From a virus: a stretch of DNA of 36,259 bases. Positions within the stretch are counted from its first letter, which is position 1. Every line of letters starts with the position of its first letter. The stretch covers positions 1-36,259 of the IMG/VR virus record IMGVR_UViG_3300012147_000039. The stretch is one strand, 5' to 3'. The notes beneath the pieces are model-generated. The model worked only from the letters and a program-made list of their open reading frames with translations, was not told the DNA's origin and did no database searches. Positions 3,790 through 28,575 of this stretch are shown here, piece by piece. A program made the position numbers and the translations under genes.

Positions 3790-5661
3790 TTAACCCCCTA
3801 GCAGGTCAAGGAGGTCAAGGATGCTTATCTCATTTTTGAGATTGACCGATACCCCTAGCATTTCGGTGACTTTAGGAGCCATAGCGTGACTGACACCGTA
3901 GGCTATAGTGGTCCCGGCGATGTCACCAGCAAAGTTGTCTGCGATACCTTGAAAGAGCGTCTCTGCCGTATCGCTGAAAAGGTCTTCCCCCATGCCCTGC
4001 ATTTCGAAGGCGAGGACGACATTCTTGCCCTTCTCTTTCATCTTTTCCATGCGTTTTAGCTGGGTTTCTACCTGATCCAGATCGGCTGGGTTGAGGGGTA
4101 GCACTACATCGTAGCCAATCCCGCAATCGTAGTAGTATACCTCTGACGCGACCTCAATACCCTTGCTTTTTACAATATAGTGAAGCGCCTCATAAATGGA
4201 GCGTGGGGGCTGCTGTTTCTTGACCGGGTGTTCTCCAGTAAATACCTGACCTAAGGTCCCATCTAGCGTGATATAGCTTTCCTCTTGTATCTGGGTGCTA
4301 CCTATAGTGACCCAGCCCTGCTTAGTGAACGTAAGATCACCGGCCCCAACTACTGCCGGAACCCCGATGCCCCGAGCGACCACCGCCGAGTGGCAGGTAA
4401 AGCCCCCGGTCTTGGTTAGGATGCCGCCGCACTTCGCCATGATAGGGAAATCGTCTGGCGATGTATCCTCTGCGACCAAAATACAGTCCTTACCAATCTT
4501 GGCTATCGGCGTCGTGCGAAAGACAATCCTGCCTGAGATAGCGCCCGGGGCTGCGGGCAAACCGGTCATAGTCGGTTTCATGTCGGTATCGACTACCGCG
4601 ATGCGCGTTTGCTCTACCATGCGGCGCGTGAGACGGGCCTTGAGGTAGCTGTAGCGCTGGGGGGAGGGCATGGAGGCGCAAAGGGCCACCGCCGTTTCTA
4701 TACGGGCGCGGGCTGACATCTTAGCCGTGCGGGTTTGAAGGACGTAGAGGGTCCCATCCTCTACCGTGAATTCAATGTCCTGAACGTCCCCGAAATGGGC
4801 TTCCAGTGTGGAGCAGAGACTGCCTAGCTGTGAGTGCAGGTTTTCCCAATATGGGTTGCCGGAATGTGCCAGATCGTCTAGGGACATGGGCGTTATTTCA
4901 CCTGATACAACTTCCTCACCTTGAGCGTTGAAGGCTATCTCACCTTTCATTTCGTTCTCACCCGTGGCCGGGTTCCGGGTAAACATGACGCCTGACCCCG
5001 AGAGGCCCTTGGCTGTCCCCATTACCATTTTTTGTACCACGCAGGCTGTGCCCATATCTTCCGGGATATCGTGCATCTTGCGATAAGCCCGAGCGCGTGG
5101 GGTATCCCATGAGCGGAATACGGCTTCGATGCAGGCCAGCACCTGTTCGGTGCGCGCTAAGGGAATGTCGAGGCCCTCTGCGCTTTTGATTACCCCTGCC
5201 ATCAGAGAAAACCGCCGTTCGCTGCTGTCTGCGCGGGCCTCTATCATTTCGGAGAGGGTCTTTACCCGTGCCTTTGGCACTCCCTTGACGATCTCTAGCC
5301 ACGATGTAGCAAAGCGGTGAAACGCGCCGGGATACATATCATCCAGTTCTACTGTTACTCCAACATTCAGAACCGTGTCCATCATCCCCGGCATGGATAC
5401 TGGAGCGCCGGAGCGAACACTAAACATGCAGTCTTTGTCGTCACTGACGAACCATGCAACTCGATCAATGAGTTCGTCTGGCAGCTTGTTATGGGTTTTG
5501 TAATACTGCCATGCGAGGGTCGTAATGACCAGCGCGCGGGGAACGGGTAACTGTGCCTGCGCCATTTCGATAAGCCCCGCACCCTTACCACCATAGATGG
5601 CTTTATCCGGTGGCGGGGCGGTGTGCGGGAAGCCTGTAGTTGCGGCCCAATACTGTGACAT
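3790..5661 (-). CDS. Pyruvate-phosphate-dikinase-like protein lacking PEP barrel
   Basis: A 623-residue protein from the ATG at 5661, which follows TTGGAGA (the in-frame TTG at 5673 overlaps that site). It has clear PPDK signatures: GGKGAG near 24, SVRSGAPVSMPGMMD at 81-95, GVMFTRNPATGE at 224-235 and LYVLQTRT near 305 form the ATP-grasp domain. TGGFTCHSAVVARGIG near 418-433, with phospho-acceptor His424, is the swivelling domain. PPDK moves the beta-phosphate of ATP to this His and then to pyruvate on a C-terminal TIM barrel. Here the barrel is absent (family length is about 870-890 residues) and about 150 unrecognised residues follow. The Thr two before the His, the regulatory site of plant PPDK, is kept. 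The acceptor must differ from pyruvate or be handled in trans. Confidence 0.85.
   Translation of the reverse strand: MSQYWAATTGFPHTAPPPDKAIYGGKGAGLIEMAQAQLPVPRALVITTLAWQYYKTHNKLPDELIDRVAWFVSDDKDCMFSVRSGAPVSMPGMMDTVLNVGVTVELDDMYPGAFHRFATSWLEIVKGVPKARVKTLSEMIEARADSSERRFSLMAGVIKSAEGLDIPLARTEQVLACIEAVFRSWDTPRARAYRKMHDIPEDMGTACVVQKMVMGTAKGLSGSGVMFTRNPATGENEMKGEIAFNAQGEEVVSGEITPMSLDDLAHSGNPYWENLHSQLGSLCSTLEAHFGDVQDIEFTVEDGTLYVLQTRTAKMSARARIETAVALCASMPSPQRYSYLKARLTRRMVEQTRIAVVDTDMKPTMTGLPAAPGAISGRIVFRTTPIAKIGKDCILVAEDTSPDDFPIMAKCGGILTKTGGFTCHSAVVARGIGVPAVVGAGDLTFTKQGWVTIGSTQIQEESYITLDGTLGQVFTGEHPVKKQQPPRSIYEALHYIVKSKGIEVASEVYYYDCGIGYDVVLPLNPADLDQVETQLKRMEKMKEKGKNVVLAFEMQGMGEDLFSDTAETLFQGIADNFAGDIAGTTIAYGVSHAMAPKVTEMLGVSVNLKNEISILDLLDLLGG
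4325..4340 (-). promoter_or_regulatory. 16-bp dyad site 1 (GTGATCTTACGTTCAC)
   Basis: One of eight copies of the family GTGNNC-N4-GNNCAC with core GATCTTA. It lies inside the dikinase-like coding region and is read in a different peptide context from the other copies, so protein sequence does not explain it. Proposed as a protein-binding site. Confidence 0.55.
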
Positions 5662-5677
5662 TGCTATCTCCAAGAGT

Positions 5678-5688
5678 GGTTGTGGTGT
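5678..5688 (-). promoter_or_regulatory. Conserved 5'-leader element (ACACCACAACC)
   Basis: This is the predicted first 11 nt of the mRNA for the dikinase-like gene. Positions 5678-5687 are the exact complement (10 nt) of the apical-loop sequence of the predicted small RNA (28478-28487). Confidence 0.5.
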
Positions 5689-5694
5689 TAGAAC

Positions 5695-14486: not shown

Positions 14487-14809
14487 CACCGGTTCCGCGT
14501 CGTATACGGGCGCATAGGCCCTCCATTCGGGCCAGTCTGCTGCCGTGATACCCCGGACAGCGGGTGTTCAGGAGGAACCATCATACTGCGCCCCATCGTC
14601 CGGGCGGAGCGATAGCTTATTTCAACAATGTTTGGCCACTCTGCCCGGCAGGCCGTGCCCTCCATAGTTTCAAAATAGAGGGCGTCGTCTGGCGTTGTGT
14701 GTGCACCATCGTAGACGCCATCAAAGACGCGGCCTGACGCCACGGTGACCCTGATCGTTTGGCCGTCTGTGGCATTATTCAGGAACTTATCGGTTTCTGC
14801 TTCGGTCAT
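14486..14809 (-). CDS. Small hypothetical protein, possibly Sm-like fold
   Basis: A 107-residue protein starting MTEAETDKFLNNATDG. The pattern IRVTVASGRVFDGVYDG, then DDALYFET and finally IVEISY, resembles the strand order of Sm/LSm domains. This is a fold guess from hydrophobic pattern only. The last 35 residues are Pro/Gly/Arg-rich and probably disordered. It is coupled to both neighbours by ATGA and GTGA/TGATG overlaps. Confidence 0.65.
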   Translation of the reverse strand: MTEAETDKFLNNATDGQTIRVTVASGRVFDGVYDGAHTTPDDALYFETMEGTACRAEWPNIVEISYRSARTMGRSMMVPPEHPLSGVSRQQTGPNGGPMRPYTTRNR

Positions 14810-15426
14810 GCCGTTACCTTCTTTTGATAAAAATGATAGTGCCCATCGCTGGACAGGTTACGTTGATAGTCCAAGTCATTCATCGTCCGGGTGAGCCATA
14901 CCGGTGGAGCGCGGCGTTTCCATGTAGCAGGTTTGGGGACCGTTCCAAAGGAAGTCTTTTCACGGGAGTAGTAGCTGCGGTAGCTGACGACTGCTTGTGC
15001 CAGTGAGGCGAGACCCCGTTTATCGCGCCCCTTATGGGCATCTGGCATCGCTAGGTAGAACCCCGCCCCGCTCATGCCGTTTCGTGCGCTGTTGCCCCGC
15101 TCTGTGAGTTTGCGGCGCATATCCTCAGTATCGTAGGAGTGCCTCTTGCCATAGCGGTAGCGGTATTCCCCGAGTAGCCCGATAAAATGACGATGGGCAT
15201 AGTCCCAGACTATCTCAGAGGAAGCGGATAGGATGCAGGGATTGTTCTTCTGGCTGGCTGGGATACCAACTATCTCATGCGTCTGGTTGGGCTGTATCGC
15301 TTGCATAATCGGGCGGGTCCCGCCGTCCAAGAGTTGCGCTGTCTCTAGGATCATTTTTAGGACGTGTTTATCATTGAGCGCTGTGGCGGCGGTAAGCGGG
15401 TTTGTATCTAGCACGAAGAGGTTCAT
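14806..15426 (-). CDS. Conserved-looking phage protein with DKHVLKMILETAQLL signature
   Basis: A 206-residue protein. The start MNLFVLDTNPLTAATALNDK followed by HVLKMILETAQLL recalls a protein family found in many tailed phages whose function I cannot name with confidence. A Tyr/Arg-rich middle (RYRYGKRHSYD) and a TWKRRAPPVW segment suggest nucleic-acid contact. The ATG follows AAAAGG and lies 34 nt from the -10 at 15460. It heads the transcript 15426-13890. Confidence 0.7.
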   Translation of the reverse strand: MNLFVLDTNPLTAATALNDKHVLKMILETAQLLDGGTRPIMQAIQPNQTHEIVGIPASQKNNPCILSASSEIVWDYAHRHFIGLLGEYRYRYGKRHSYDTEDMRRKLTERGNSARNGMSGAGFYLAMPDAHKGRDKRGLASLAQAVVSYRSYYSREKTSFGTVPKPATWKRRAPPVWLTRTMNDLDYQRNLSSDGHYHFYQKKVTA

Positions 15427-15442
15427 GGGGTTAGCCTTTTGC

Positions 15443-15453
15443 GTTGTGGTGAT
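15443..15453 (-). promoter_or_regulatory. Conserved 5'-leader element (ATCACCACAAC)
   Basis: Predicted 5' end of the mRNA for the gene at 15426. Positions 15443-15452 (TCACCACAAC) are fully complementary, over 10 nt, to the apical loop of the predicted small RNA (28477-28486). Confidence 0.5.
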
Positions 15454-15459
15454 CGGCCC

Positions 15460-16713: not shown

Positions 16714-16746
16714 TTTGATTGTCCTTTGTTGCTTAGTGGTATTCGT

Positions 16747-24149: not shown

Positions 24150-24638
24150 TTAGAAGTCGTCCAGTTCGGAGTATTCATCACTGGCCCGGTTATCCCGTAA
24201 GGTGATCTTAGGATCACTTTTGCCGCGCGTGACGTGCCGATTGAATTCTGCCGGTTTCATAATCGTTTTGAGCGCCTTTAGATCAGGCTTGTATGTAATC
24301 CGAATTTGTTCATCAGTCAGCATTTCGACCGTCTTGTCCCGGTCCTTGAGCGTGATCGTTTCAGCTTCCGCCGTGTAGGTCAGCATCCCAACTTCGGTGC
24401 GCGTGGTTACCCGCTTTTCCGGCGGCATGGCAGCATAGGCTTTCTTGAGGCGGGCGCGCATCAGGTCTTCGATAGGCGCTAGGGCCTCTGCCTTTTCGCG
24501 TTCGCGCTTGCAATAGATGGCAACTTCTACCATCGCCTCCAAGGGCATGTTCTTATCCTTGAGAAGTGCGGCAACGTCTGCCGGGTCCTGTCCGCTCAAC
24601 GTCACGGTAGGCAGCGTGATATTTCCAATCTTAGGCAT
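24150..24638 (-). CDS. Hypothetical replication-module protein with acidic tail
   Basis: A 162-residue protein I do not recognise. The helical middle (CKREREKAEALAPIEDLMRA) is followed by a beta-rich part (VGMLTYTAEAETITLKDRD) and an acidic aromatic tip YSELDDF. The tip loosely recalls SSB tails, so a partner-docking role is conceivable. The ATG at 24638 follows AAAAGGA and is 37 nt from the -10. It is the first gene of the transcript that also includes the primase. It contains a 16-bp dyad site near its end. Confidence 0.75.
   Translation of the reverse strand: MPKIGNITLPTVTLSGQDPADVAALLKDKNMPLEAMVEVAIYCKREREKAEALAPIEDLMRARLKKAYAAMPPEKRVTTRTEVGMLTYTAEAETITLKDRDKTVEMLTDEQIRITYKPDLKALKTIMKPAEFNRHVTRGKSDPKITLRDNRASDEYSELDDF
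24202..24217 (+). promoter_or_regulatory. 16-bp dyad site 6 (GTGATCTTAGGATCAC)
   Basis: A nearly perfect palindrome, GTGATC-TTAG-GATCAC, near the 3' end of the gene at 24638. It shares the flanking AAAAGTGATC context with site 4 on the minus strand. Confidence 0.55.
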
Positions 24639-24674
24639 TTGGTGATCCTTTTCGAGTGTGGTGGTTATGAGGCC

Positions 24675-27644: not shown

Positions 27645-28388
27645 CTAGTCGGTGGTTTCAGGTTCCGCCGGTGTGAGGGCGGGGGCCTGTCCGAGTAGAT
27701 GAACCTTAGACCCTTCCGTACCTGTAGCGGGTTTGTCAACCGGCTTTTCAGAGTTATCCACAGGTATTTTCTCTGGGTCAGGTTCGTAATCCCCACTCAC
27801 GTCCAGTTTCTTTACTGAGGCCCCGGTGCCTGCCGGTTCCGGTTCCGGGACCACCTTGAAGGGCACCTCTGGGCCGTGTTCCGCCGCCGCTGCCATATAG
27901 ATATTCATATCGAAGAGGCTCAGGAGGGCGGGCACCTTTGAGAAGTTTTTGGCTGGGGATATCGGAGCAATGACTGAGGTAACCAGCTTCGCAAAGTCTG
28001 TAACAAAGTCGTCCCTCAGGTGATTGATATAGAGCACCGCCTTCTCTTGCTCTTCCGAAATGGGCAGGAGTATGCCCGAGACCTCGCTGACCAGCTTCTT
28101 GGCAACGATATCTGGGAAGCCGGAGCCAACCTTTTCCACGGTGAAGCCAGTATTCAGCATCAGGGTGCCGCGCAGAGTATTCTTCGACCGCTCAATACCC
28201 GACACCAGAACAGACTTGGGGACCATCATGGGGTCAAAGTAATCTGTTTGAAGGGATTTGAACCGGCACCGCAGCGCGAGGATTACGGTAGTGGATTGGA
28301 TAGTCAGCGTCGGCGTAATCGACAGTTCGAATTCGTCAGTATTGGCGAGGACGGCGTATACATTATTGCCGCCAGACTGCACAAGCAT
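27645..28388 (-). CDS. Hypothetical phage protein, own promoter and terminator
   Basis: A 247-residue protein I do not recognise. The N-terminal 170 residues are beta-rich with a helical C-terminal part (FVTDFAKLVTSVIAPI). The last 75 residues are a Pro/Glu/Lys-rich low-complexity tail. There is no signal peptide. The ATG at 28388 follows AAAGGAAA and is 31 nt from the -10 of the promoter at 28419. It is the gene directly downstream of the predicted small RNA, and its leader (ACCACAACC) is complementary over 9 nt to that RNA's loop. Confidence 0.75.
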   Translation of the reverse strand: MLVQSGGNNVYAVLANTDEFELSITPTLTIQSTTVILALRCRFKSLQTDYFDPMMVPKSVLVSGIERSKNTLRGTLMLNTGFTVEKVGSGFPDIVAKKLVSEVSGILLPISEEQEKAVLYINHLRDDFVTDFAKLVTSVIAPISPAKNFSKVPALLSLFDMNIYMAAAAEHGPEVPFKVVPEPEPAGTGASVKKLDVSGDYEPDPEKIPVDNSEKPVDKPATGTEGSKVHLLGQAPALTPAEPETTD

Positions 28389-28403
28389 TTGGGATTTCCT
28401 TTC

Positions 28404-28412
28404 GGTTGTGGT
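28404..28412 (-). promoter_or_regulatory. Conserved 5'-leader element (ACCACAACC)
   Basis: The predicted first 9 nt of the mRNA for the gene at 28388, complementary to the apical loop of the predicted small RNA encoded just upstream (28479-28487). Confidence 0.45.
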
Positions 28413-28418
28413 CCCGAA

Positions 28419-28455: not shown

Positions 28456-28541
28456 CTAAAAAGGACGGGCGCTAGCTCACCACAACCTGCGCCCGTCCAG
28501 TTTCACCACCAAGCGACTGCCTTGGAGAAACAGCGCTAGGT
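28456..28541 (-). ncRNA. Predicted phage small RNA, about 85 nt
   Basis: A promoter (28547-28575) is followed by a strong terminator (28458-28498) with no gene between; at all eleven comparable promoters an ATG follows within 28-37 nt. The RNA would start ACCTAGCGC, form hairpin 1 (GTTTC/GAAAC at 28527-28531 with 28500-28504 and CCAAG/CTTGG at 28521-28525 with 28509-28513, 7-nt loop) and end in the terminator hairpin, whose 16-nt apical loop contains GGUUGUGGUG (28478-28487). That sequence is the exact complement of the leader of the dikinase-like mRNA, and shorter complements occur in other leaders. Only a 10-codon GTG reading frame exists in it. Trans-acting regulation is inference. Confidence 0.6.
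28458..28498 (-). terminator. Rho-independent terminator of glycan/lysis run and small RNA
   Basis: On the minus strand: stem GGACGGGCGC (28489-28498) with GCGCCCGTCC (28463-28472), 10 perfect pairs, 16-nt loop, then TTTTT (28458-28462) and more T-rich sequence. It is the strongest terminator in the window. Confidence 0.9.
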
Positions 28542-28546
28542 GTGAG

Positions 28547-28575
28547 TATATATAGGCGTTTACCTTGTTCGTCAA
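28547..28575 (-). promoter_or_regulatory. Sigma70-type phage promoter with no downstream gene
   Basis: On the minus strand: TTGACG (28570-28575), 17-bp spacer starting AACA, TATATA (28547-28552), overlapping the end of the glycosyltransferase gene. The next feature is a terminator about 50 bp on, so it should give a short RNA. Confidence 0.75.

Follow-up and report, generated by a model that had tools for sequence, protein, structure and literature searches.

What does a complete phage promoter make when no gene follows it? The window analysed here (36,259 nucleotides, positions 1 to 36,259 of IMG/VR record IMGVR_UViG_3300012147_000039) raises this question on its minus strand, where a promoter (28547-28575; TTGACG at 28575-28570, a spacer of 17 nt, and TATATA at 28552-28547) is followed by a terminator with a 10-bp stem (28458-28498). 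The initial annotation had remarked on the missing gene, and both the sequence and the ORF calls bear this out: no start codon with an open frame was called by our script downstream of this promoter. The promoter, the fold of the predicted transcript, the ordered complementarity of both of its loops to phage mRNA leaders, and conservation with stem compensation lead us to read the locus, with a probability of roughly three in four, as encoding a trans-acting antisense small RNA with two hairpins that would repress a phage-wide set of mRNAs.

The locus and its predicted transcript

The candidate locus (28541-28458, minus strand) is located between a glycosyltransferase-like gene, which ends at 28572 and whose label is taken over from phage relatives, and the gene 27645-28388. 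Its predicted RNA (28458-28541), with a 5' end placed from the -10 element and a 3' end placed from the U-tract, is about 84 nt long and holds no called ORF. Hairpin 1 spans 28508-28541 and has the apical loop CUCCA (28527-28523). Hairpin 2 (28463-28498), which is the terminator hairpin, consists of a GC-rich stem of 10 bp (28498-28489/28472-28463) and a 16-nt loop (28488-28473), and is followed by the U-tract (U5, 28458-28462) of the intrinsic terminator. This two-hairpin fold, as proposed earlier, has a predicted energy of -40.7 kcal/mol (z -4.1), and none of 200 shuffled sequences folded as well. In the window the locus has its own promoter, no coding gene and a defined 3' end, as do members of the general class of trans-encoded base-pairing small RNAs.

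The earlier count of eleven comparable promoters, each with a start codon within 28-37 nt, was roughly right. Our pattern found 14 TTGAC-type sites on the coding strand of the window, one of which is that of the small RNA; nine of the other 13 have a start codon 23-36 nt past the -10 element, and four lie inside ORFs by position. A coding role for the locus was set aside, as the sole frame is a 10-codon one with a GTG start that, by eye, is not kept in the relative described below. An antisense mRNA leader on the opposite strand was also set aside, no promoter being seen there by eye. The covariance models of Rfam 15 gave no match in the window at the gathering cut-off.

Two loops complementary to one shared leader

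The promoters of this phage share GGTTGAC[A/T/G]AAC, and behind them lies a common leader that starts near the predicted transcription start with ACACCACAACC and in many cases ends with CTTGGAGA followed by ATG. We collected 34 such leaders from four records (21 from the window phage and its 85-kb record, the middle of which was represented by the window sequence, 3 from a 24-kb record, 5 from a 19-kb record and 5 from a 31-kb record), choosing them by promoter and start codon and making no use of the leader motif. Of 61 pattern sites, 43 had a start codon and 34 were kept; nine were dropped on start codon, distance or promoter letters. At least two of the nine have the look of true leaders (L061:14966, and L061:5460 with a TTG start picked by the script); a further two, L063:8934 and 11057, are leader-type promoters with long leaders. 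Conversely, a few of the sites kept, such as window site 13893 and L021rc:6776, are perhaps not real promoters. All six sense-strand CACCACAACC sites in the 85.2 kb fall inside collected leaders, as do 8 of the 10 CCACAACC sites in the 85-kb record.

Both loops of the predicted RNA complement this leader. The loop of hairpin 2 contains GGUUGUGGUGA (element 2, 28477-28487), which complements the leader 5' motif (A)CACCACAACC; the loop region of hairpin 1 contains UUUCUCCAAG (element 1, 28521-28530), the complement of (C)CUUGGAGA(A), which is the Shine-Dalgarno segment of those leaders. The antiparallel order of the two is correct. The initial annotation missed the match of the hairpin 1 loop, and the finding is stronger than it saw. 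Runs of 9 or more contiguous pairs are possible for element 2 in 18 of the 34 leaders, and runs of 7 or more for element 1 in 22; 20 leaders fit both in order (at least 6 pairs for element 2 and at least 7 for element 1), and five match neither at those thresholds.

Within the window, where all the leaders concerned are on the minus strand, the leader of the pyruvate phosphate dikinase-like gene (5662-5694; ATG at 5661) pairs over 10 nt with element 2 (5678-5687) and over 8 nt with element 1. Element 2 also pairs over 10 nt, shifted by one, with the leader of gene 14806-15426 (15427-15459), which has no Shine-Dalgarno match, and over 9 nt with that of the adjacent downstream gene 27645-28388 (28389-28418). 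These three complementarities to element 2 had been noted before and were recovered here. The leader of gene 176-952 (953-982) pairs over 7 nt with element 2 and 10 nt with element 1, and that of gene 1591-2544 (2545-2576) over 5 and 8 nt, respectively; element 2 pairs over 7 nt with the weaker target leader of gene 24150-24638 (24639-24674) and over 5 nt only with a weakly matching site of the same promoter class (16714-16746). First genes behind well-matched leaders include the dikinase-like gene, a member of a PHROG 'DNA binding protein' family (14806-15426) and the head gene of the DnaB region. Most target leaders lie outside the window; among 10 first genes scanned there, eight had no PHROG match and two matched families of unknown function. 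None of the 21 leaders lies in the piece that encodes the tape-measure and tail proteins (L066), on whose coding strand a single TTGACC site with a start codon was filtered out; that site has no leader motif.

By sequence alone the element 2 10-mer is not striking, since it occurs at 6 places in the window with at most one mismatch, with 2.25 expected, and 5 of 100 shuffles reach 6. What gives it significance is its location at promoters, along with the complementarity of the other loop and the conservation. When paired with the 21 window-phage leaders, the window RNA had a mean longest run of 8.76, compared with 5.69 in 500 shuffles (maximum 7.52), and a duplex energy of -28.8 compared with -21.2 kcal/mol; no shuffle reached either value. 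Single elements arose in 12 and 7 of 20,000 shuffles of the window RNA, and in 55 and 18 of those of the relative's RNA, whereas both in order were found in none, for each of the two RNAs. In the sequences examined, both elements come within 110 nt of each other on the coding strand at the two small-RNA loci and nowhere else; the minus-strand places are leaders read in reverse. The initial annotation had cautioned that the complementarity could be a by-product of a shared leader sequence. This now appears unlikely, because two separate complementary segments are found, both in hairpin loops, and none of the 20,000 shuffles had both in order.

It also seems that the leader is more than a part of the promoter, as a full copy, TTCACCACAAACCTTGGAGACAATTATG, starts immediately behind a stop codon within an operon, without a TTGAC-type promoter (L020:4707). 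This copy, together with the match of the second loop to the Shine-Dalgarno segment, speaks for a leader that is read in the form of RNA and points to an action at the RNA level.

In the favored reading, loop 2 would pair through GGUUGUGGUGA with the first nucleotides of the leader-bearing mRNAs, and loop 1 through UUUCUCCAAG with their Shine-Dalgarno segment. The two loops would thereby occlude the short leader between its 5' end and the ribosome-binding site, both included, and block initiation of translation, and the pairing would probably also shorten the life of the mRNA. Transcription of the locus, pairing in cells, repression, its timing and the part of any chaperone are what we infer from these features.

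The seeds of the RNA, which complement several mRNAs near ribosome-binding sites beyond chance, are only partly unpaired in its predicted fold (mean unpaired 0.43-0.56). Cofolding gave a modest mean gain of -5.7 kcal/mol for the 21 window-phage leaders versus -2.7 for 49 other gene starts (p 5e-5), in a calculation that cannot model loop-loop contacts. In isolated leaders the Shine-Dalgarno segment is partly folded (mean unpaired 0.36), and pairing starts close to the predicted 5' end of the mRNA, which could be protected in this way. Both points are compatible with an RNA that pairs with the leaders and raises their expression, by shielding the 5' end from decay or by opening leader structure. 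However, element 1 covers the Shine-Dalgarno sequence itself, and the 5' ends of the leaders are already mostly unpaired (mean 0.80). We give activation a small chance, and favor repression.

The locus in a syntenic relative

One relative, IMGVR_UViG_3300022723_000136 (the 24-kb record, L005), is the sole one whose record covers the syntenic site. Its neighbouring proteins are 55% and 51% identical to those of the window, and its DnaB helicase is 67% identical. At the syntenic site it has, in the same place, a promoter (TTGACA and CCTATATAT), a homologous hairpin 1 with the loop CUCC, and a hairpin 2 with the same loop as in the window; both elements are identical and both 11-nt loops are kept. 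When stretches of 202 and 227 nt were compared, the longest common strings, of 11 nt each, were GTTTCTCCAAG and GGTTGTGGTGA, which are the two loops, and GTTGACAAACG of the next promoter; the leader of the next gene, ACCACAACCG, gave a shared string of 10 nt. Random pairs of stretches of the same sizes shared at least one 11-mer in 62 of 3,000 cases. All 10 pairs of hairpin 2 are kept, six unchanged, three with double changes and one with G-C replaced by G-U, whereas slid controls had 26-45% of cells paired. Covariation alone is modest evidence, since there are only two sequences and 60 of 500 shuffles reach the same count.

The stem of hairpin 2 in the relative is not followed by a U-tract, so that the 3' end of its RNA is unclear. 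The initial annotation had held that related phages which keep the terminator and lose the loop would speak against a small RNA; the one relative found shows the reverse, with the loops kept and the U-tract lost. For the same reason, the locus does not fall into the class of simple intrinsic terminators, even though the window has both the stem and U5. The kept promoter and loops, the compensated stem and the second, ordered loop support the earlier proposal of a trans-acting RNA aimed at phage mRNA 5' ends.

A 19-kb contig from the same sample as the relative (G004) has non-overlapping genes, the same leaders and the same operator variant, and is probably part of the same phage. CUUGGAG is present in none of the three leaders of the 24-kb record and in four of the five of this likely sister contig. 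The energy of the relative's RNA against the eight leaders of its sample was reached by 1 of 500 shuffles, and the run length by none. In cross-pairing, the energy of the window RNA against the leaders of the 24- and 19-kb records was reached by 5 of 500 shuffles and the run length by none, and the relative's RNA against the 21 window-phage leaders was matched by none of 500 on either measure. The leader is also present in a third phage, represented by the 31-kb record (G003), and no shuffle in 500 reached the values of either RNA against its leaders. No anti-leader hairpin was found in the 31-kb record, which by gene mapping does not span the syntenic site.

The lost U-tract also bears on a possible function in cis. 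In the relative, a long transcript could hold both the hairpins and the leader of the next gene, as expected if the locus were a leader or attenuator of the downstream gene at 28388 and the other matches simply followed from its shared leader. We regard this as unlikely. The window has a full terminator and then a separate promoter, and element 1 matches CUUGGAGA, which is absent from the leader of the downstream gene in both phages; selection on element 1 therefore points to other genes.

The window matches an 85-kb IMG/VR record, IMGVR_UViG_3300035034_000707, over 16.6 kb that include the locus without a mismatch. Across window positions 2198-36002, the two loci that were compared have 3 and 6 mismatches (99.99% and 99.96% identity), all outside the small-RNA locus, and positions 1-2197 were compared in part; the few single-base differences mean that the window is a near-identical relative or variant of that record and not the same sequence. 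By its proteins the phage is close to Rhodobacter phage RcZahn and to SIO-2-like phages of Vibrio. The terminase is 38-44% identical among the 15 matches listed, and several of these phages also have relatives of the dikinase and DnaB. At E 0.001, none of the four records gave a tyrosine integrase or serine resolvase, so that a role in lysogeny is without support.

Searches for further members of the family gave few additions. Three pattern scans of IMG/VR for the small RNA (13, 6 and 30 stretches) yielded no third locus; the gap allowed in the first was too long to match even the locus of the window. On inspection the locus was present in the 85-kb record and the 24-kb relative only, and the other stretches were rejected as lacking the promoter-hairpin architecture. 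Protein-based scans likewise reached these two records alone. A scan for promoter and leader (29 stretches) found true leaders in the 85-kb, 31-kb and 19-kb records and in an 11-kb record that is 99.98% identical to part of the 85-kb one; L056 and L065 look like chance, as do the three matches of a promoter-and-leader scan of bacterial genomes. A blastn search against phage records gave no match. RcZahn, DLP_5 and SIO-2 have stereotyped Shine-Dalgarno leaders of their own (CCAAGGAGGG, 13 copies; CAATGGAGTG, 15; GCTAAGGAGC, 9), and no exact reverse complement of these was found on their coding strands.

Several other features were observed in these genomes. A 16-bp near-palindrome, GTGATCTTACGTTCAC, is dispersed over 25 places in the 85 kb (at most 3 mismatches), among them window 4325, 6405, 9450, 16782, 19695, 24202, 29110 and 32564 and places in L019, L020 and L066; several are just upstream of leader promoters. 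It takes the form GTGAACTTGAGTTCAC in the 24- and 19-kb records (G002/G004) and GTGAACTTGCGTTCAC in the 31-kb record, which suggests operators or stoperator-like sites that differ from phage to phage. The distant relatives DLP_5 (L096/L097), RcZahn (L060/L067), SIO-2 (L100/L101) and RHph_Y1_11 (L098/L099) have another dispersed palindrome, TGCAATCAATTGCA, whose core GCAATCAATT is present in 19 copies, in one orientation, in DLP_5; RHph_Y1_11 has a TGCAACAAATTGCA-like form of the palindrome. A tRNA with the anticodon UUA, which reads the stop codon UAA, is predicted in the 19-kb relative (L063:10178-10252), and DLP_5 is annotated with a CTA suppressor tRNA. The DNA polymerase ORF at L019:7-4137 (1376 aa) has a match to an HNH endonuclease in its middle (residues 545-713) that looks like an insertion. 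At L019:10477 (minus strand), a leader-type promoter opposes the genes and is followed by no called ORF; its transcript, with a CCGGGAACAGCCCGG hairpin near the beginning, may be a further non-coding RNA.

Comparison with known RNAs and implications

Among the known RNAs compared here, the closest design is that of the alphaproteobacterial alpha-r14/NfeR1 RNAs and the closest phage analogue is the c4 RNA. The alpha-r14 ('cuckoo') family, which includes NfeR1 of Sinorhizobium meliloti, is host-encoded and is described with three hairpins, each with an unpaired CCUCCUCCC (PMC10746234). Like the phage RNA, its members combine several hairpins with short, ultraconserved unpaired antisense motifs and differing stems, and target many mRNAs at the start of translation (PMC10746234). 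Loop motifs that are conserved while stems differ are also found here, in two sequences only. The phage RNA is not a member of that family as described there (PMC10746234), as it has two hairpins with two different loops, UUUCUCCAAG and GGUUGUGGUGA, which fit two segments of one shared leader. Because an anti-Shine-Dalgarno sequence in a loop is a design known from alpha-r14/NfeR1 (PMC10746234), UCUCCAAG might be a general loop of this kind with host mRNAs as its main targets. This seems distinctly unlikely, since the loop has leader-specific letters beyond the Shine-Dalgarno core and element 2 matches a phage-specific motif.

The c4 antisense RNA of P1 and P7 is likewise made by a phage and prevents translation of a phage gene by acting around its ribosome-binding site, with complementary parts that are likely in loops, but the account in PMC12197685 describes one target, ant, whereas here 20 of 34 leaders from four records fit both loops. 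The sar RNA of P22 and the OOP and aQ RNAs of lambda also restrain phage genes, each being described as antisense to one gene (ant, cII and Q, respectively; PMC12197685); unlike these, the RNA studied here lies apart from its predicted targets, except for the leader of the adjacent gene, and fits a shared leader. VpdS of VP882 and PreS of lambda are separate, phage-encoded, trans-acting small RNAs, and VpdS influences both phage and host mRNAs; they differ in being Hfq-dependent and aimed wholly or partly at host RNAs, and no shared phage leader is described for them in the part of the review concerned (PMC12197685). Most of the phage antisense RNAs covered there either hold back a single phage gene or have host RNAs as all or some of their targets (PMC12197685). 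Among the matches listed by a literature search, from which subscription journals were mostly absent, none was a phage RNA that targets a leader common to mRNAs of the phage.

The position of the leader motif at a fixed place after promoters, together with the presence of another dispersed, operator-like palindrome in the phage, could suggest that a phage regulator uses the motif as its operator on the DNA, the loop being an inverted copy of that operator. We consider this very improbable, as it leaves unexplained element 1, the placement in loops, the compensated stem and the leader copy inside an operon. Chance, or a non-functional relic of an inverted leader, is hardly credible: a single inversion could start complementarity between leaders and RNA, but the promoter on the RNA strand is conserved, both loops are intact between phages as divergent in their flanking proteins as these, the stem is compensated, and the shuffles do not reproduce the two elements together.

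If the locus does encode a trans-acting antisense RNA, the leader that many operons have in common would place the whole set under one RNA, which could, for example, end early and middle expression. We see as evenly poised a further proposal of an RNA-based operon code in which one two-loop RNA reads a bipartite address, the 5' end and the Shine-Dalgarno segment, on many phage mRNAs and, instead of a repressor protein, governs the expression of a phage-wide gene set. As the loops, known from two phages, match leaders from three, the RNA of one phage could also silence an incoming relative. A single RNA that reads a two-part address on many of the virus's own mRNAs would, if true, give a virus a new means of timing its genes. 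The pairing code would be simple and amenable to reporter tests, and it suggests a general search for stereotyped phage leaders paired with anti-leader hairpin RNAs.
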